From Mesorhizobium sp. SOD10 (GTDB lineage: Bacteria > Pseudomonadota > Alphaproteobacteria > Rhizobiales > Rhizobiaceae): a stretch of DNA of 64,000 bases. The number at the start of each line of letters is the position of its first letter. Position 1 is the stretch's first letter. Below are positions 7,559 to 16,377 of this stretch, one piece after another. A program made the position numbers and the translations under genes. The stretch is taken from the NCBI GenBank assembly GCA_000824805.1, contig CCNA01000034.1:1-64000 (forward strand). The letters run 5' to 3'. The notes under the pieces were generated by a model. It was not told the origin of the DNA and did no database searches. It was given only the letters and a program-made list of their open reading frames with translations.

Positions 7559-7896
7559 TCAGACACTCCAAAATGCAAAAACCCGCCGATCGTCGCGATG
7601 GGCGGGGCTGGGATGGGCGAACCGGGGGGGACTTGCTAGCCGGCCTTTGTGTTCACGCAATCAGCTTGCCGCTCCTTCGAACGGCGGCGTCGCTGCGGAT
7701 TTGCGAGAAAGACGGTCATGGCGGGAAGCTGGACCGGGGCCGAGGGACTGTCAAGCCGGCTGCGTCGACGCGGCGTATGTACCATCGGCGACCCGGCGCA
7801 TTGTTCGGAAAAGTCGATCATTATAAACCGAATAATTCGTTGGAAAGATTGGTTCTGGAATGGCATTGCGGCGATAAAAGTGCCTGGAGAACTCGA
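7559..7896. other. 338-bp intergenic region between divergent genes
   Basis: This holds the promoters of the GNAT gene and the YeiH-type gene. No small gene is supported. Bases 7811-7840 are AT-rich (ATTATAAACCGAATAATTCG) and are the best candidate for the promoter of the transporter. The transporter frame is open throughout, but that part translates to a non-conserved Arg/Gly-rich sequence. Confidence 0.5.
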
Positions 7897-8958
7897 TTGT
7901 CTTTCCTGCCTGCCGCCGCGAACGATCTTCCAAATCGCCTCAATCCGGCCGCTGCCGGACGAAAGCGAACCGCCCTGACCTCGATCTCGGCCGGTGTTGC
8001 GCCGGGACTGGTGCTGGTGGCGATGATCACCAGCGTCGCCTATTCGGCGCGCGGCCTCTCCGGCCTCACCTTATTCAGCCCGATGATCCTCGCCGTCGTC
8101 GCCGGCATGATCTATTCCAATGTGCTCGGCGTGCCTGCCCACGCCAAGGCCGGCATTGCCTTCTCGCAAAAGCGCCTGCTTCGCTTTGCTATCGTGCTGC
8201 TCGGCTTCCAGCTCACGCTCGGCCAGGTGGCGGGCATCGGCCTCGGCGGTGTCGGCATCGTCGCCGCCACGCTCGGCGCCACCTTCCTGTTCACGGCCAC
8301 ACTCGGGCGGCTGATCGGCGTCGACCGGAAGCTGGCGCAACTGATTGCCGCCGGCACCTCAATCTGCGGCGCCTCGGCTATCGTCGCCACCAACATGGTC
8401 ACCGACGCGCGCGACGAAGACGTTACCTATGCTGTCGCCGCGATCACGCTGTTCGGCACCATTGCCATGCTCGGCTTCCCGCTGCTGGCGCCGGTCTTCG
8501 GGCTCGACCAGCACGCCTTCGGCCTGTGGGCGGGCGCCTCGATCCATGAGGTGGCGCAAGTGATCGGCGCCGGCTTTCAGAACGGGACGCTTGCCGGCGA
8601 GACGGCAACCGTCGCCAAGCTGACGCGCGTCGCCATGCTGGCGCCGATGGTGATCGGCCTCGGCCTGTTGGCGCGCCGCGGCGGCGCCGACGTTTCCGGC
8701 GCCAAGCCGCCGATACCCTGGTTCGTCGCGGCCTTCGTGGCGGTCGTGGCGCTGAACAGCCTGGTTGCGATCCCGGCCCAGATCCATGCCGCAATTGCCT
8801 TGGCCGCGCAGGTGATGCTGACCATGGGGCTTGCCGCCATGGGCCTTCAGGCCGACATTTCCGAGCTGCGCTCGCGCGGCCTGCGCCCGCTGGTGCTGGC
8901 CTTCTCGGCCTTCCTCTTCATCGCCGTCTTCAGCCTGACACTGGTGAAGCTCGGCTGA
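7897..8958 (+). CDS. YeiH/UPF0324 family putative sulfate exporter-type membrane protein
   Basis: An inner-membrane protein of 353 residues with about ten hydrophobic segments. The motifs [32 protein letters not shown] and [13 protein letters not shown] are hallmarks of the YeiH/UPF0324 family, whose members are annotated as putative sulfate exporters; the transported substrate is not firmly established. I chose TTG at 7897 because GGAGA lies 6 nt upstream and the resulting length matches the family. No LysR regulator, the frequent neighbour of yeiH, is present. The gene stands alone, convergent with the fRMsr gene. Confidence 0.85.
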
Positions 8959-8982
8959 GGCGGCCGAGACCGGCATCACCTC

Positions 8983-9492
8983 TCAGTCCTCGTCATCATC
9001 CTCGAACTGGCACGACGCGACATAGATCGCGGCGAGCTTCTCGATGCCGGCCTGGTCTTCCTTGTCGAACCGGCCGGGCAGCGGGCTGTCGAGGTCGAGC
9101 ACGCCGAACGCGCCGTCGGCATCGCGCAACAGCACGACCAGTTCGGAACGCGAATCGGCATCGCAGGCGATGTGGCCGGGAAATTCGTTGACGTCCTTGA
9201 CCAGCATCGACATGTCGAGCTCGATGGCCGTGCCGCAGACGCCTTTGCCGACGGGGATGCGAACGCAGGCGGGCTTGCCCTGGAAGGGCCCGAGCACCAG
9301 CTCGTCGTCGGAGGCCAGGAAATAGAAACCGGCCCAGTTGAGGTCGGGCACCATCTGGTAGATCAGCGCCGCCGTGTTGGCGGCATTGGCGACGGAATCG
9401 CCCTCGCCCTCCAGCAGTGCCTTCAATTGCACGGCCAACTCCTTGTAAAAGGCCGGCTTGTCCTTGGTCTCGATGGCGGTTGCCGCGAACAT
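8983..9492 (-). CDS. msrC: free methionine-(R)-sulfoxide reductase (GAF domain, YebR/MsrC type)
   Basis: This 169-residue cytoplasmic enzyme reduces free L-methionine-(R)-sulfoxide and thereby repairs oxidised methionine. It is a single GAF domain with the family signature LNWAGFYFL, GPFQGKPACVRIPVGKGVCG and FPGHIACDADSRSE. The three redox cysteines map to Cys76, Cys86 and Cys110. The acidic end FEDDDED is unusual but harmless. The start at 9492 has GGAGAG 8-9 nt upstream. It is divergent from the Nudix gene and convergent with the YeiH-type gene. Confidence 0.9.
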   Translation of the reverse strand: MFAATAIETKDKPAFYKELAVQLKALLEGEGDSVANAANTAALIYQMVPDLNWAGFYFLASDDELVLGPFQGKPACVRIPVGKGVCGTAIELDMSMLVKDVNEFPGHIACDADSRSELVVLLRDADGAFGVLDLDSPLPGRFDKEDQAGIEKLAAIYVASCQFEDDDED

Positions 9493-9582: not shown

Positions 9583-10011
9583 GTGACCTCCAGCCACTCC
9601 AGAACATTGACGGCCAGGACGATACGGATTGCTGCCGCCGTCATCCGCGACGACGGCGGCAGGCTGCTTCTGGTACGCAAGCGCGGCACCAGCACCTTCA
9701 TGCAGGCCGGCGGCAAGATCGAGCCGGGTGAGCTGCCGGCCGTCGCTCTTGCGCGCGAATTGCGCGAGGAGTTGGGCGTTGCCGTCGATCCGGCCGCGGC
9801 CTTCCATCTCGGCTCCTTCTCGGCGCCCGCCGCCAATGAGCCGGACGCCCACGTCGAGGCCGAGCTGTTCGAACTCTCCCTCACCGGCAAGCCGGTCCCG
9901 GCGGCCGAGATCGAAGAGATGATCTGGCTGAACCCGGAGCTGGCAGGCGGCATGGAGCTGGCGCCGCTGACCGCCGATATCGTGCTGCCGCGCTACGGCC
10001 GCCAGCCATGA
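9583..10011 (+). CDS. Nudix hydrolase
   Basis: A 142-residue hydrolase that cleaves a nucleoside diphosphate linked to another group. The Nudix box is intact at residues 43-65: GGKIEPGE, then RELREELG, holding the metal-binding glutamates. GTG at 9583 is the most likely start (GGGA about 11 nt upstream); a TTG at 9607 is an alternative. Its stop overlaps the start of the next gene in ATGA, so the two are translationally coupled. The substrate is unknown. Confidence 0.85.
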   Translation: MTSSHSRTLTARTIRIAAAVIRDDGGRLLLVRKRGTSTFMQAGGKIEPGELPAVALARELREELGVAVDPAAAFHLGSFSAPAANEPDAHVEAELFELSLTGKPVPAAEIEEMIWLNPELAGGMELAPLTADIVLPRYGRQP

Positions 10012-10985
10012 ATTCACGCAACGAAGAAAAACAGGCGGTGGGCGAAGCGCCCCTCACCTTCGCAGTGCTGGTCTTTCCCGGCTTTCCTATGATGGCGTTT
10101 TCGTCCGTCATCGAGCCGCTGCGCGCCGTCAACATTCTTGCCAAGCGCGACTGCTACCGCTGGGTGATCGTCGGCGCCGATGCGGGTACAGTGGAGGCAT
10201 CGAACGGTGTCGTCATCCAGCCTGGTTTCTCGGCCGCCGACGCGCCGAAGGTCGACCGTATCGTCGTCTGCTCGGGCGGCGATGCCGATCATGTCGTGGC
10301 CGACGAGGCGATGAGCTGGATCCGCAAGAGCCTGCGCGGCGGCGCGCATATCGGCGCGGTGGCGGACGCGGCTTTCTTCCTCGCCCGCGCCGGCCTCCTC
10401 GACGGCCATGCCTGCACTTTGCATTGGACCAGCCAGGCCGCTTTCACCGAAGCTTTTCCGGACATCGAGCTTCGGCGCGATCTCTTCGTCATCGACCGCA
10501 AGCGTTTCACCTCTGCCGGCGGCGTCGGCAGCCTCGACATGATGCTGGAGATCATAACGCGGGACTATGGCGCCGAGCTCGCGGCGGGTGTCGCCGAATG
10601 GTTCGTGCACTCACCCTTGCGGTCGAGCGTCGACCGCAAGCTGATGCCGCTCAGGCTGCGCACCGGCGTCCAGAACGAGCTGGTGCTGTCGGCCATCGCC
10701 ATCATGGAGGACGCGGTCGAGGAACGGCTCGGCATGGCGGAGCTGGCTGACCGGCTTGGGGTCTCGCCCGACAAGCTCGAGCGCAGTTTCCGCGCCGAGC
10801 TGGATATCTCGCCCAATGGGTATTACCGGCGGCTGAGATTGAAGCGCGCCGCCGATTTGCTGGCGCATTCGACGCTGATGGTGCGCGATGTGGCGCTAGC
10901 GTGCGGATTTGCGTCGATGTCGAGCTTTGCGAGGGCGTTTCGCGAGGAGCATGGGCACGCGCCAAAAGCGATGCGGCGGCATTAG
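10008..10985 (+). CDS. GlxA/GbdR-type transcriptional regulator (DJ-1/PfpI-like plus AraC HTH)
   Basis: A 325-residue regulator. Residues 17-190 form a DJ-1/PfpI-like sensing domain and residues 230-322 a C-terminal AraC double HTH (ERLGMAELADRLGVSPDKLERSF, in part). The opening FAVLVFPGFPMMAFSSVIEPLRAVN matches regulators of the GbdR/CdhR group that control glycine betaine, carnitine or arginine catabolism. The nucleophile-elbow position reads VADAAFFLARAGLL, without Cys, so it senses rather than catalyses. It is coupled to the Nudix gene by ATGA overlap and points at the catabolic genes from 11311, which are its likely targets (inference). Confidence 0.85.
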   Translation: MNSRNEEKQAVGEAPLTFAVLVFPGFPMMAFSSVIEPLRAVNILAKRDCYRWVIVGADAGTVEASNGVVIQPGFSAADAPKVDRIVVCSGGDADHVVADEAMSWIRKSLRGGAHIGAVADAAFFLARAGLLDGHACTLHWTSQAAFTEAFPDIELRRDLFVIDRKRFTSAGGVGSLDMMLEIITRDYGAELAAGVAEWFVHSPLRSSVDRKLMPLRLRTGVQNELVLSAIAIMEDAVEERLGMAELADRLGVSPDKLERSFRAELDISPNGYYRRLRLKRAADLLAHSTLMVRDVALACGFASMSSFARAFREEHGHAPKAMRRH

Positions 10986-11010
10986 ATGGTGGAGTGGTGC
11001 AAGCCCTCTC

Positions 11011-11219
11011 CTTCGTCATCCTAGGGCGAAGCGACGCGCAGCGGAGCGAAGACCCTGGGATCCATGCCGTGACCTAAGAGCGTCTCTGCGATGCAGAACT
11101 GCCAGCGCTATGCCAGCAAGGACTTTCTGCACCGCTGCATTCTCTGGCCGGCGTAACCGCATGGATTCTAGGGTCTGCGCGCGTCGCTTCGCTCCTTGCT
11201 TCGCCCTAGAATGACGAAG
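11011..11219. repeat. 209-bp MITE-like intergenic repeat with long inverted ends
   Basis: The ends CTTCGTCATCCTAGGGCGAA and TTCGCCCTAGAATGACGAAG are near-perfect inverted copies, and the symmetry continues for about 60 bp on each side through the CGACGCGC and GGATCCATG/CATGGATTC parts. It has no coding capacity. Elements with this CTTCGTCAT-TCTAGGG end are, to my knowledge, spread between genes in Mesorhizobium and relatives. It separates the regulator gene from its presumed target operon. Confidence 0.8.
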
Positions 11220-11310
11220 TTATGACTGCGGCATCCGGCACGACATTTGCGGAATGCCGCACAAGCTCAAAACCCGGCCCGGCTATGTTTGCACGAACAG
11301 GAGGCCGCCC

Positions 11311-12609
11311 ATGAGCATCGTCGTATTCGACCCCGACAGCACCGAAGATGTGGATTTCAAGGACCGCATGCGCCATCCGGCCGCGGCCGATCCCGCAGGC
11401 GGCATGTGGTTGTCCGACACCGAGCCGTCCTTCATCGATGCCGATGCGCTGCGCAAGGGCCGGCTCGCCAAGCTGCGCGCCTGGATGCGCCAGGCGGGCT
11501 ATGGCGGCATCGTTTTGTTCGATCCCTACAACCAACGCTACGCGACCGGCTCGCGCAATATGTTCGGCTATTTCCTGCGCAATTCGACGCGCTATTTCTT
11601 CGTGCCCACCGAAGGGCCGATCGTGCTGTTCGAATATCCGCAGAGCTACCATGTCTCGATGGTGCTCGACACGATCGACGAGGCGCGTCCTTCCAAGCTC
11701 GTCTGGTCGTCGGTCTCGGGCCGCGACGACGAGACCGCAGGCCCCTTCGCCGACGAGATCACCGAGTTGCTCAAGAAGCATGGCGGCGGTTCGATGAAGC
11801 TCGGGCTCGATCGCTGCAGCCACCTGCAGGCGCTGGCGCTGGAAAAGCGCGGCTGCGAGGTGAAGGACTGCCAGGGCGAAATTCTCGCCGTGCGGGCGGT
11901 GAAGACGCCCGAGGAAGTGAAATGCCTGCAGGCCTCGATGGCGGGCGCCGAAGCCGCGGTCGCCGCCGTGCGCGAGGCGATCAAGCCCGGCGTTTCCGAG
12001 AACGAGCTGTTCGCCATCATGTATCACGAGGTGATCCGCCAGGGCGGCGAGTTCATCGAGACAAGGCTGCTCACCTCGGGACAGCGCACCAATCCTTGGT
12101 TCAACGAGGCGAGCGGCCGCAAGATCAGGCCGGGCGAGTTGGTCGCGCTCGATACCGACACGATCGGCTGCTACGGCTATTATTCCGACTTCTCGCGCAC
12201 CTTCCGCTGCGGCCCGGGCAAGCCGACGCCCTACCAGAAATCGCTCTACCGCATGGCGCACGACCAGGTGCAGCACAACATCTCCATCGTGAAACCCGGT
12301 ATGGCGTTCCGCGAGATCGCCGAAAAGGCCTGGAAGATCCCGGACCGCTTCGTCGACCAGCGCTACACTTCTGTGATGCACGGCGTCGGCATGCATGGCG
12401 AAACGCCCTTCATCGCCCACGCGATGGACTACGAGATCTATGGCCGCGACGGCATCATCATGCCCGGCATGGTGGTGAGCGTGGAAAGCTATATCGGCGA
12501 AAAGGGCGGCCGCGAGGGCGTCAAACTCGAGGACGAGATCCTGATCACCGAGACCGGCACGGAGCTGCTCTCGCGCTTCCCGTATGAGGATGAGTTTCTT
12601 GACAAGTAG
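11311..12609 (+). CDS. M24-family (creatinase/aminopeptidase P fold) enzyme, DddP-like but lacking the lyase nucleophile
   Basis: A 432-residue pita-bread enzyme, cytoplasmic, whose nearest known type is the DMSP lyase DddP: it shares GGIVLFDPYNQRYAT (65-79), ETRLLTSGQRTNPWF (250-264) and LDTDTIGCYG (280-289). All six metal-ligand positions are kept: Asp281, Asp283, Asp293, His357, Glu392 and Glu407. The residue that aligns with the DddP catalytic Asp (MHGVG-L-C-D) is Gly363 here (MHGVG-M-H-G). It is therefore probably a hydrolase of another small molecule, not a DMSP lyase. The start at 11311 has AGGAGG 6 nt upstream. It leads a three-gene run with two further hydrolases, 27-bp and 5-bp gaps apart. 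Confidence 0.8.
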   Translation: MSIVVFDPDSTEDVDFKDRMRHPAAADPAGGMWLSDTEPSFIDADALRKGRLAKLRAWMRQAGYGGIVLFDPYNQRYATGSRNMFGYFLRNSTRYFFVPTEGPIVLFEYPQSYHVSMVLDTIDEARPSKLVWSSVSGRDDETAGPFADEITELLKKHGGGSMKLGLDRCSHLQALALEKRGCEVKDCQGEILAVRAVKTPEEVKCLQASMAGAEAAVAAVREAIKPGVSENELFAIMYHEVIRQGGEFIETRLLTSGQRTNPWFNEASGRKIRPGELVALDTDTIGCYGYYSDFSRTFRCGPGKPTPYQKSLYRMAHDQVQHNISIVKPGMAFREIAEKAWKIPDRFVDQRYTSVMHGVGMHGETPFIAHAMDYEIYGRDGIIMPGMVVSVESYIGEKGGREGVKLEDEILITETGTELLSRFPYEDEFLDK

Positions 12610-12636
12610 CGCCGACGCATCGACAGCAAGATCCGT

Positions 12637-13314
12637 ATGAAAACGCCCATTTCCATCCGGCGCGGCACGGTGGCCGCGGTGTTCATCGATCTCCAGGAGG
12701 AGCATCGCAAGGATAAACGCTATCTGGTCGAGGGGTTCAGCGACATCCTCGCCAATGTCCAGCGCCTGCAGGAGGCGGCGCGGCGCAATTTCGTGCCGCT
12801 CCACCACTGGGCCTATATCGTCGACCTCGCCGAGGCACGGCCGTTCCACCCGGTCGACGAAAGCGGCAAGTCGGCCTTTTCGGACAAGGACGATCCGCTG
12901 ACCGCGATCTGCCATGAAGTGGCGCCGCAAGGTGGCGAAGCCATGCTGGTCAAGCAGGAGGCCAGCGCCTTCGGCAGGAACGATTTCGCCGAGAAGCTCA
13001 AAGCGTCCGGGATCGAATGGCTGGTGATTGCCGGCGTCTGGACCGAGGCCTGCATCGACGCCACGGTGAAGGACGCGGTGGCGCGCGGCTTTCGCGTGCT
13101 TTTGGTCAAGGACGCCTGCGGCAGCGCGAGCGCCGCCATGCACCAGACCGGCATCCTCAACCTTGCCAACCGGCTCTATGGCGGCGCTGTCACCAACACG
13201 CTCGATGCCTGCCGACTGATGGCAGGCGACACCGTGAAGGTGTGGCAGGTCGAGGGCTCGGTGCCGCTGCGCTTCACCTTCGAGAACGCGGCGCAACTTT
13301 ACGCGGAGCTCTGA
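12637..13314 (+). CDS. isochorismatase-like cysteine hydrolase
   Basis: A 225-residue cytoplasmic hydrolase of the isochorismatase/nicotinamidase/N-carbamoylsarcosine amidase fold. The catalytic triad is visible as Asp18 (VFIDLQ), Lys106 (LVKQEASAF) and Cys139 (GVWTEACIDAT). A Cys nucleophile means amide or carbamoyl cleavage is likelier than isochorismate cleavage. It follows the M24 enzyme by 27 bp and precedes the alpha/beta hydrolase by 5 bp, so the three are probably one operon acting on one compound. The substrate is unknown. Confidence 0.85.
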   Translation: MKTPISIRRGTVAAVFIDLQEEHRKDKRYLVEGFSDILANVQRLQEAARRNFVPLHHWAYIVDLAEARPFHPVDESGKSAFSDKDDPLTAICHEVAPQGGEAMLVKQEASAFGRNDFAEKLKASGIEWLVIAGVWTEACIDATVKDAVARGFRVLLVKDACGSASAAMHQTGILNLANRLYGGAVTNTLDACRLMAGDTVKVWQVEGSVPLRFTFENAAQLYAEL

Positions 13315-13319
13315 CGGCA

Positions 13320-14324
13320 GTGGCCGGCCCTCCAACCGATCCGGCGAGCCGCGGCAAATATGCCGACCGGCTCGATCCGGAACTGTGGGACTATATCGAC
13401 GAGGTCAACAGCTGGTATCCGCCGGAGATCGTCGCCGCGCCCATTGCCGAGCAGCGCGCGATCTATGACCGGATGTGCGCCGCATTTCACCAAGGCCATC
13501 CGGACGGCGTGACGGCCAGCGACGGTCTTGTCGCCGCGGCGCATGCGATCCCGGTGCGGCGCTATCGCATGGCCGGCAAGGCCGCGGCGGCGGTCGTGGT
13601 CTACTATCACGGCGGCGGCTTCGTGCTCGGCGGTCTCGACAGCCATGACGACATCTGCGCCGAGATCTGCGCCGGCACCGGCTTCGAAGTAGTCTCCGCC
13701 GACTACCGGCTGGCGCCGGAGCATCTGCATCCCGCCTCCTTTGAGGATGTGCTTGCCGTGTTCGAATGGGTCGCCACGACGAGCGCGCTGCCGATCGTGC
13801 TTTGCGGCGAAAGCGCCGGCGGCAATCTCGCGGCGGCCGTGGCGCAGGCGACGCGGCGCCATGAAAGGCACGCCGTTGGCCAAGTGCTGATCTATCCAGG
13901 CCTAGGCAGCGACGAGACTGGGCGCTCTTACGTCGAGCATGCCGAAGCGCCGCTGCTCAGCGTCAGCGACATCGAGTTCTACCGTCGTGTTCGATCCGCA
14001 CCCGGACAGGCTTTGGACGACCCGACCTTCTCGCCGCTCAGGGATCGTGACTTTTCCCGTCTGCCGCCGACGATCATCGTCACCGCCGAATGCGATCCGC
14101 TATCGTCGGATGGCGAAGTGTACCGCGACCGTATCCTCGCCGCCGGCGGACAAGCGTGGTGGCGCGAGGAGAAGCGGCTGGTGCACAGCTTTTTGCGGGC
14201 AAGGCCGACGGTGCCGCGTGCGGCGGAGGCGTTTGCGAGGATTGTTGGCGACATCGCAAGGCTGGGCGCCGGCGACGAAGCGCTAATCTCCCCCCTTGTG
14301 GGGGTTGAGGAGCGGTCCGCATAG
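13320..14324 (+). CDS. alpha/beta hydrolase of the hormone-sensitive lipase family
   Basis: A 334-residue esterase/lipase-type hydrolase. The oxyanion-hole motif HGGGF is at residues 97-101, the nucleophile Ser165 in GESAGG, the acid Asp259 in ECDPL and the base His289 in LVHSF, so the triad is complete. GTG at 13320 lies 5 nt after the preceding stop with GGAG 11 nt upstream. The 3' end is odd: the last 12 residues (ISPLVGVEERSA) and the stop codon are encoded by the repeat that begins at 14285, so the original C-terminus has been replaced. The fold should end before this point, so activity is probably kept. Confidence 0.85.
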   Translation: MAGPPTDPASRGKYADRLDPELWDYIDEVNSWYPPEIVAAPIAEQRAIYDRMCAAFHQGHPDGVTASDGLVAAAHAIPVRRYRMAGKAAAAVVVYYHGGGFVLGGLDSHDDICAEICAGTGFEVVSADYRLAPEHLHPASFEDVLAVFEWVATTSALPIVLCGESAGGNLAAAVAQATRRHERHAVGQVLIYPGLGSDETGRSYVEHAEAPLLSVSDIEFYRRVRSAPGQALDDPTFSPLRDRDFSRLPPTIIVTAECDPLSSDGEVYRDRILAAGGQAWWREEKRLVHSFLRARPTVPRAAEAFARIVGDIARLGAGDEALISPLVGVEERSA

Positions 14325-14605: not shown

Positions 14606-14670
14606 AGCCAACGGCGCCCTGGCGGTCGCGTCCGCCCCCGCACCTCGCGATCCCGGGACGGCCGTTGGCT
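14606..14670 (+). repeat. long inverted repeat in the leader of the binding-protein gene
   Basis: Perfect 10-bp arms AGCCAACGGC (14606-14615) and GCCGTTGGCT (14661-14670) enclose a GC-rich inner part that can pair further (GGTCGCG with CGCGATC). The hairpin ends 66 nt before the start codon of the binding protein and is followed by TTGTGCAATTCC. It may be a terminator of upstream transcription or an RNA control element. Confidence 0.5.
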
Positions 14671-14736
14671 TTGTGCAATTCCTTGCCCAACAGACCGCCG
14701 CGCGGGCAACGCGCGCCAACAACAGAGGGAACGACG

Positions 14737-16377
14737 ATGAAATTCATGCTGACCGACAGAAAACTGCACCCGCGTGCCAAGCCGATCGCCGACGATTTCA
14801 GGAAGGGCGCAATCAGCCGGCGCGAATATCTGGCTTTGATGGCCGGCTTCGGCGTCAGCGCCGCCGGCGCGATGGCGTTGGGCGGGATTGCTCCCTCACC
14901 TGCCCGTGCCGCCGAGCCGAAAAAGGGCGGCGTGTTGCGCGTGGCGATGAACGTCAAGGGCTTCAAGGATCCGCGCACCTTCGACGGCGTCGAGATGTCG
15001 AACGTCGCGCGCCAGTGCAACGAATATCTGGTGCGCTGGAACACCGACTTCTCCTTCGAACCCTGGCTCTTGGAAAGCTGGGAAACCAGCGACGACGCCA
15101 AGACGATCACGCTCAATGTTCGCAAAGGCATCACATGGTCGAACGGCGACATTTTTAACGCCGACGACGTGATCCACAACCTCAGCCGCTGGTGTGATGC
15201 CGCGGTTGCCGGCAATTCGGTCGCGGCGCGCATGGGCGCGCTGGTCAATGCCGACACCAAGAAGCCGGTCGACGGCGGCATCCAGAAGGTCGACGACTAC
15301 ACCGTCAAGCTCAACCTGCCGAAGCCCGACATCTCGCTGATCGCCGGCATGGCCGACTATCCGGCGCTGATCATGCACCGCTCCTATGAGGGCGACGCCG
15401 ACCCGAAGAAGGCTTTGGCCATCACCACCGGCCCTTGCGAGCTGGTGAGCTGGGACGCCGAGACGGGCGCCGAAGTGAAACGTAAGGACAAGCCCTGGTG
15501 GAAGGGCGAGTTCTATCTCGACGGCATCAAATGGGTCGACTACGGCTCCGACCCCAACGCCATGCTGTCGGCCTTCGAATCCGGTGAGATCGACACCGAC
15601 CACGAAACCGCGTCGGATGCCGTGTCGCAGACCGAGCAGATGGGCCTGCAGAATTCCGAGATCGCCACCGGCTCGACCATCGTCGCGCGCTTCAATGTCT
15701 CCAACGCACCCTATGACGACGTCAAGGTGCGCCGCGCGGCCCAGCTTGCCGTCGACAATGCGGCGGTGCTGAAGCTCGGGCTCGACGGCCGTGGCAAACC
15801 CGCCGACAACCACCATGTCGGCCCCATGCATCCCGAATTCGCCGATATCGGCCCTGCGGTGCGCGATGTCGAACAGGCCAAGAAGCTGATGGCGGCATCC
15901 GGCAAGGCCGACCACGAGTATGAGCTGATCTCGGTCGACGTCGAATGGCAAAAGAGCACAGCGGACGCGATCGCGGCGCAAATCCGCGACGCAGGCTTCA
16001 AGATCAAGCGCACTGTGCTGCCGGCCGCGACCTTCTGGAACGACTGGGCCAAGTTCCCCTATTCCTGCACCGAATGGCTTGGCCGCCCGCTCGGTGTCCA
16101 GGTGCTGGCGCTGGCCTATAAATCGGGCGGCGCCTGGAACGAAAGCGCCTATTCGAACAAGGAGTTCGACGAGCTTCTCGACAAGGCGCTGGCGACGCCA
16201 GACGCTGCGGCGCGCAAGGAGATCATGGCCAAGATCGAGACCAATTTGCGCGACTCCGGCATCATCGTCCAGCCCTACTGGCGCTCGGTCTACCGCACCT
16301 ATCGCAAAGGCGTGCAGGGCTGCGAACAGCACCAGGCGCTCGAGCAGCATTTCGAGAAGGTCTGGCTGGAGTCGTGA
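14737..16377 (+). CDS. ABC transporter substrate-binding protein, family 5 (dipeptide/oligopeptide type), Tat-exported
   Basis: A 546-residue periplasmic solute-binding protein of the peptide/opine/nickel class. A Tat signal is present: Arg28-Arg29 in [13 protein letters not shown], then a hydrophobic stretch and SPARAA cleavage near residue 59. The family features [27 protein letters not shown] and a late [13 protein letters not shown] are seen. The ATG at 14737 has AGAGGGA upstream. No permease or ATPase gene follows; a hairpin terminator and an unrelated TPR gene come next. Its position after the hydrolase genes suggests that it captures their substrate, but this is inference. Confidence 0.88.

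Follow-up and report, generated by a model that had tools for sequence, protein, structure and literature searches.

Creatinase and the ectoine hydrolase DoeA (EutD) use a two-domain M24 scaffold for C-N hydrolysis in the catabolism of osmolytes and N-methyl compounds, and M24 enzymes activate water at their dinuclear centre. The marine DMSP lyase DddP belongs to the same family, and dddP counts serve to map DMSP cleavage. An earlier note on the DNA analysed here had called Asp377 of DddP a nucleophile; two papers instead describe it as the favoured catalytic base, which removes the alpha-proton, with Tyr366 as the alternative (PMC4108388; PMC5395565). In the second paper, the residues that handle DMSP are an Asp, a Trp and a Tyr, of which the Trp and the Tyr hold the sulfonium (PMC5395565).

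We compared with these systems a gene in a window of 64,000 nucleotides from Mesorhizobium sp. SOD10 (the whole stretch of DNA that was analysed), in which positions 11311-12609 of the plus strand encode a protein of 432 residues and its stop codon (coding part 11311-12606). AGGAGG stands just 5' of the ATG at 11311. The open reading frame is a genuine gene under strong purifying selection, dN/dS being 0.02-0.06 against the five related copies L005, L039, L049, L067 and L084 (simple Nei-Gojobori); the values for L137 (0.19) and L138 (0.24) were computed without gap alignment and were left out of the evidence. Like the M24B aminopeptidases P and prolidases, the protein combines the Pfam domains Creatinase_N (47 bits, cutoff 22) and Peptidase_M24 (123 bits, cutoff 23) with the residues of a dinuclear metal site. 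The DddP structures 4s01, 4rzy, 4s00 and 4b28 were its top phmmer matches with 233-246 bits, followed by a next match of 78 bits, and solved creatinases reached only 37-42 bits. Creatinase and DoeA thus share the two-domain scaffold with the window protein but are distant in sequence, and both NCBIfam models for DoeA missed their cutoffs (58/575 and 30/613 bits). None of the peptidase equivalogs (PepQ, PepP and others) was reached either, the best score being 74.3 bits against a cutoff of 630. The NCBIfam DddP equivalog NF043017 gave 315.5 bits (E 5.4e-94) against a cutoff of 600. With this model, two other proteins of the same lineage (clade A, defined below) scored 312 and 321 bits and one protein of a second Gly lineage (G2) 326 bits, while relatives that carry the Asp (Asp-type) scored 400-522 bits (L002, L108, L128 and L147) or 699 bits (L171), and the f60 proteins L130 and L132 scored 792 and 900 bits. 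The DddP-clade f60 proteins are 32-38% identical to the window protein. An AlphaFold2 model built from 12 near-identical Mesorhizobium-type proteins had a mean pLDDT of 39.3 and was set aside.

At the level of residues, three statements of the earlier note held up. The likeness to DddP does extend over long stretches, RlDddP (4rzy) aligning with residues 43-427 at 245.6 bits (E 6.6e-72). The six metal ligands have exactly the DddP spacing and align 1:1 with those of RlDddP (window/RlDddP: D281/D295, D283/D297, D293/D307, H357/H371, E392/E406 and E407/E421), all six being among the columns that are invariant across 45 aligned proteins. Gly363, finally, is aligned to Asp377, a column with Gly in 11/11 clade-A rows and Asp in 17/17 rows of the DddP clade. 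We take the Trp and the Tyr that hold the sulfonium to be Trp95 and Tyr366. Trp95 is present in all 17 DddP-clade rows and is replaced by Tyr87 in all 11 clade-A rows; Tyr352, at the position of Tyr366, is kept in 11/11 clade-A rows and in all family rows examined. Judged from this alignment, two of the three DMSP-handling residues (Asp377 and Trp95) are replaced in clade A, and only the Tyr is kept. The window protein differs from DddP (RlDddP 4rzy, RdDddP 4b28) also in having Thr for Trp379 and His362 for Cys376; His stands at positions 362 and 370 in each of the 11 clade-A rows.

The window protein also departs from aminopeptidase P and prolidase, having Asn261 and Gly363 instead of catalytic His residues, if the positions and numbering of these residues in aminopeptidase P are as we assume them to be. 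Asn261 lies opposite the His that precedes the metal Asp in L277, another M24 protein of the same genome, which we judged from its motifs to be aminopeptidase-P-like and whose second loop was not cleanly aligned. Gly363 lies opposite a His in the relative L201, the loop after the metal His being one residue shorter in the window protein than in L201. Asn261 is invariant across 45 family rows, and RlDddP has the same Asn in the phmmer alignment. Given Gly363 and Asn261, the window protein lacks both the DddP base and the usual M24B His residues, and since a canonical M24B catalytic His is Asn261, an ordinary peptidase-like hydrolysis mechanism would not be intact. The retention of Tyr352 in all family rows examined leaves room for beta-elimination.

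Phylogenetic placement was examined with two trees. The quick tree had 99 rows, with near-copies (>92%) and sequences shorter than 350 aa removed and the split M24 gene of L139/L098 omitted from the alignment; its Asp377 column held 73 Asp and 21 Gly, along with 2 Trp and a single Val, His and Tyr each. Clade A (11 rows) and G2 (8 rows) stood apart from a 76-row group made up of 73 Asp rows, one Val row (L173) and two Gly rows (L196 and L197), so that Gly is also present, on a long branch, inside the mainly Asp group. L196 (G087:C13) and L197 (G136:C1) are DddP-like M24 proteins with a one-residue loop insertion, and the same alignment gives them Gly at metal ligand Glu406, possibly an altered metal site or a misalignment. 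The careful tree comprised 47 rows including three outgroup M24 proteins, with L196, L197, L173 and several other long rows omitted. Here clade A branched first (11 rows, support 89/82), and a branch starred in this tree (98/96) united G2 (7 rows, 91/84) with its sister, the Asp clade (26 rows, 100/99), deep within which RlDddP is a tip. Read together with the Asp377 column, this tree places the window protein in the Gly clade A, outside the Asp clade (100/99). Across the sampled genomes, the Asp is shared by a clade that extends well beyond the DddP tip, with two Gly lineages outside it.

The idea of a non-lyase sister clade stood insofar as clade A is a separate, non-DddP lineage (clade A 89/82, Asp clade with DddP 100/99, DddP score about half of the cutoff); that it is not a lyase is likely only. 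Gly probably did not replace an ancestral Asp, as the Asp marks a derived clade, and in view of both trees a recent loss of the Asp in the clade-A lineage was no longer our leading hypothesis. Since the Gly lineages A and G2 lie outside the Asp clade and DddP deep inside it, the plain reading would be that the Asp was gained on the Asp branch, on the DddP side, and that Gly is older. However, an AU test did not reject A and G2 as a single clade (p 0.105), and the outgroup joins by a long branch (2.67), which makes this polarity tentative.

The closest matches in the collection were Mesorhizobium copies with at most 98% identity. Our Mesorhizobium-type set consists of the best 80 of 143 confirmed loci, with 94-98% identity and nearly all from Mesorhizobium; these 80 loci are near-copies from almost a single genus and are not independent. 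Matches at E <= 1e-40, a count that includes the source genome and Asp-type relatives, were found in 60/297 genomes of the order-level sampling and in 41/398 of the phylum-level sampling, and within family f94 of the latter 52 of 151 genomes matched the clade-A protein of L141 at E <= 1e-120. Among 72,556 plasmid records, 190 matched, and 65 of these were at least 90% identical. When the Sinorhizobium meliloti copy was used as a DNA query, it matched 65 records, 63 from Sinorhizobium and two from Shinella. Annotated plasmid records name the clade-A protein 'Xaa-Pro peptidase' or 'aminopeptidase P', names that look doubtful in view of the residues, and many list no feature there. The genome of the window itself also contains an Asp-type DddP-like paralog (L002, G000:C60:103543-104709). 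It is 43% identical to the window protein and likewise has the six ligands, but it keeps the Asp (HGVGLADEYP) where the window protein has Gly, and it scores 485/600 bits with the DddP model.

In the window, the M24 gene is preceded on the plus strand by a GlxA/GbdR-like AraC-family regulator at 10008-10985 (DJ-1/PfpI and HTH_18 by Pfam; NCBIfam GbdR 289 bits, missing the cutoff of 480). It is followed, also on the plus strand, by an isochorismatase-fold cysteine amidohydrolase at 12637-13314 (PF00857, 128 bits), an alpha/beta hydrolase of the Abhydrolase_3 type at 13317-14324 (LipP1/HSL-like esterase; NCBIfam LipP1 228 bits, missing the cutoff of 350) and an SBP_bac_5 solute-binding protein of the Opp/Dpp type at 14665-16377 (Pfam, 215 bits), the exact starts of the last two being uncertain. 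A gene caller that took the M24 gene as its seed missed the alpha/beta hydrolase of the window. The best solved match of the isochorismatase-fold protein was N-carbamoylsarcosine amidohydrolase 1nba (E 6e-13), with Asp, Lys and Cys aligned, which we take to be the catalytic triad of this fold. Among the best 80 of 143 loci, counting those with enough flank and matches of at least 40% identity, the GbdR-like regulator lay upstream on the same strand in 74/75, the isochorismatase-fold gene downstream on the same strand within 4.5 kb in 79/79, the Abhydrolase_3 gene in 72/75 and the SBP_bac_5 gene in 61/72; MttB, HalD, ProV, MR/MLE and Ldh were each found in 0/60 loci of this set within 7 kb flanks. 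Two further features were seen around the gene. A 709-aa frame on the minus strand (11206-13335), antisense to the M24 and isochorismatase genes, is in all likelihood an artefact of the G+C-rich coding sequence. An inverted repeat at 11011-11219, between the regulator and the M24 gene, has 29-nt arms that are 86% complementary and is perhaps a rhizobial intergenic repeat element; one of its arms, searched in the window, occurred a single time.

On the Sinorhizobium and Shinella plasmids the core of regulator, M24 and isochorismatase genes is kept and joined by others. Genes are annotated there in the order LysR (opposite strand), a trimethylamine methyltransferase family protein (MttB), GlxA regulator, M24, isochorismatase, ABC permease, ATPase, permease, glycine-betaine-type binding protein, MR/MLE and an Ldh-family oxidoreductase, the transporter ATPase being listed in the Shinella record and recognised by similarity in S. 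meliloti. The Shinella cluster continues with another binding protein and an alpha/beta hydrolase, followed by sarcosine oxidase genes encoded on the other strand. The gene content of L135 and L136 is very similar, Ldh having no match in the stretch fetched. The transporter of the Sinorhizobium, Shinella and L135/L136 clusters is of the ProU/OpuAC type with an OsmF/ProX-type binding protein; the solved relatives of the MttB-like protein include 4yyc, 2qne and the glycine betaine methyltransferase 9yce, and an FAD/GcvT protein also occurs among the clade-A neighbour genes. One study reports changed expression of SMa1462, named there as an ABC-type transporter for glycine betaine, in glnD or glnB-glnK mutants (PMC3596328). 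From its position we would guess that this is the transporter of the clade-A operon, the pSymA records having been fetched without gene annotation. The MR/MLE protein of Shinella is very close to the solved structure 2pgw (804 bits; deposited as a muconate cycloisomerase), and 2pgw-like genes of the operon lie at 17593-18717 in L217 and 19704-20828 in L215. Our literature search found no functional paper on 2pgw; one structure-comparison paper names it.

Distant members of clade A are accompanied by another partner, a HalD/WelO5-family Fe/2OG protein (PF23169, 70 bits; nearest solved relative HalB 7u6i, E 5e-8). A HalD-type gene lay directly upstream of the M24 gene in 33/49 clade-A loci (26 of these 33 are from f94 and hence not independent), in 1/6 G2 loci and in 0/24 Asp-type loci; another two had too little sequence for this count. 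In Fe/2OG enzymes of this kind, hydroxylases keep an Asp where halogenases have Gly. All 40 sequences in which the pattern was found (duplicates included) read HxWHxD, so by this rule the HalD-type protein should hydroxylate. When neighbour proteins of 35 distant loci were grouped into clusters of similar proteins, named from one representative each and with stricter clustering of HalD than in the upstream count, we found LysR in 31, HalD in 31, an OpuAC binding protein in 16, CN_hydrolase in 15, ProV in 14, MmsA in 14 and MmgE/PrpD in 6. ProV was absent from the stretch fetched in the other 21 of the 35, and L142 and L146 have a branched-chain-type or Opp-type carrier component in place of the ProU type. 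The MmsA scores, 648 and 660 bits, exceed the cutoff of 448. The nitrilase-fold CN_hydrolase scored 87/410 bits with AguB, which ranked behind an NAD synthase model. L139, the one locus seen to combine the rhizobial and distant gene sets, has its clade-A M24 gene broken into two overlapping reading frames (G126:C1, reverse-strand coordinates about 7760-9132), by what looks like a frameshift or an assembly error. At L147 an MttB-like gene adjoins an Asp-type M24 gene, and the MttB/N-methyl context thus reaches beyond the Gly lineages. Besides a HalD-type protein (10830-11699), a plasmid stretch of Rhodobacteraceae M382 (L276, CP081100.1, 1-16267) carries genes for an ABC transporter, two FAD-dependent oxidoreductases and an MttB-like protein; an aminotransferase and an aldehyde dehydrogenase are encoded divergently, and the annotation shows no M24 gene there.

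Because the key Asp is absent, the branch is separate and the neighbour genes are of the betaine type, the clade-A protein, which is conserved in soil bacteria, is most likely another enzyme than DddP. Starting from the gene, its ligands, Gly363, its phylogenetic place and its conserved neighbourhood, all observed directly, we infer a mechanism and a substrate: with slightly less than even confidence, we read the window protein as a dinuclear-metal M24B C-N hydrolase in the breakdown of quaternary-ammonium or N-methyl solutes. Such a solute would be imported via ProU-type (or Opp-type) carriers, and the M24 enzyme, its metal site presumably occupied, would cleave a C-N bond (amide, amidine or guanidine-like) with metal-activated water, the DddP base being absent from this M24 lineage and perhaps never present in it. 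The isochorismatase-fold amidase (the nitrilase-fold CN_hydrolase in some distant clusters) would then act on what the M24 enzyme releases, and the carbon skeleton would reach central metabolism either by N-demethylation (MttB-like, FAD/GcvT, sarcosine oxidase) or by hydroxylation together with MmsA; the order of these steps and the chemical class of the substrate are equally conjectural. Since two unrelated amidase families stand beside the same M24 lineage, hydrolysis to an amide- or ureido-type intermediate would be the preferred chemistry, by likeness to creatinase and DoeA on the same scaffold. Against this speaks that both amidase families are broad and that the N-carbamoyl names rest on weak matches. 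The same direction is taken by the zero counts of MttB, HalD, ProV, MR/MLE and Ldh around the Mesorhizobium-type genes, by the 21 distant loci with no ProV in the stretch fetched, by the MttB-like gene beside an Asp-type M24 gene at L147, by the kept Tyr352 and by Asn261 at a canonical His position. The neighbour genes suggest catabolism of N-methylated solutes; they single out none of trimethyllysine, ergothioneine, carnitine, stachydrine, beta-alanine betaine or creatine-like compounds. A bolder version, which we consider speculative and rather unlikely, is that clade A is a metal-dependent amidino- or ureido-forming hydrolase paired with non-homologous N-carbamoyl-type amidases, which have the isochorismatase fold in rhizobia and the nitrilase fold in a distant family. 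Together they would open a widespread, unrecognised catabolic route, present on the S. meliloti symbiotic plasmid, that starts with uptake via ProU of an N-methylated osmolyte bearing a guanidino or amide group.

The main rival to C-N hydrolysis, possible though on the unlikely side, is a lyase for another onium compound, in which Tyr352 would act as the base, the metal would bind the carboxylate and an amine would be eliminated from a betaine-type substrate. The Tyr needed for this is kept in every clade-A row and corresponds to the alternate base named for DddP (PMC4108388), the transporter context is of the betaine type, and MmsA, just downstream in 14/35 distant loci, could take malonate semialdehyde; but the favoured DddP base is absent, Trp95 is replaced, and such a route needs no amidase partner. 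That DMSP is the substrate after all is very improbable: the strong E-value with the DddP model, the identity to the f60 proteins and the complete metal site are set against the missing Asp377 and Trp95, a score of about half the cutoff and a place in a separate clade. Nor, to our knowledge, does the content of the clade-A operon resemble any known DMSP cleavage cluster. An Xaa-Pro or N-methyl-peptide dipeptidase, as in the annotated plasmid records, would agree with both Pfam domains and with the Opp-type binding protein near 61/72 of the loci from the best 80 of 143, yet we consider it improbable, as the peptidase models stay far under their cutoffs (at best 74/630 bits) and Asn261 and Gly363 occupy what we take to be the two canonical His positions; RlDddP, which shares the Asn, had no Val-Pro activity (PMC5395565). 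The absence of both canonical His residues checked and of the DddP Asp could also indicate a catalytically dead sensor or scaffold. With six ligands among the columns invariant in 45 proteins and the low dN/dS, we would scarcely expect this.

For the mapping of DMSP cleavage, the danger of automatic annotation as a DMSP lyase, of which the earlier note had warned, is smaller than stated in one respect and real in another: the NCBI cutoff of 600 excludes the protein and the annotated plasmid records say peptidase, whereas a loose E-value rule could count it. A rule of E < e-70 was used in one paper (PMC5395565); our phmmer E of 6.6e-72, obtained by a different method, indicates that a rule of this kind could include clade A. 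With a large M24 family around DddP, an Asp clade wider than the DddP tip and two Gly lineages outside it, surveys need residue and clade checks. The fold and the metal site were already known; as judged from sequence, the subfamily and its operon appear new relative to the literature found, a search of open-licence papers having returned no description of either. The clade-A operon may help to assign a function to the 2pgw-like MR/MLE protein. In distant bacteria, Gly-type M24 enzymes are paired with a relative of HalD that is of the hydroxylase type. In legume symbionts, the conserved plasmid-borne set of an MttB-like methyltransferase, M24 protein, amidase, ProU transporter and 2pgw-like enolase-superfamily protein is a candidate route for N-methylated solutes.
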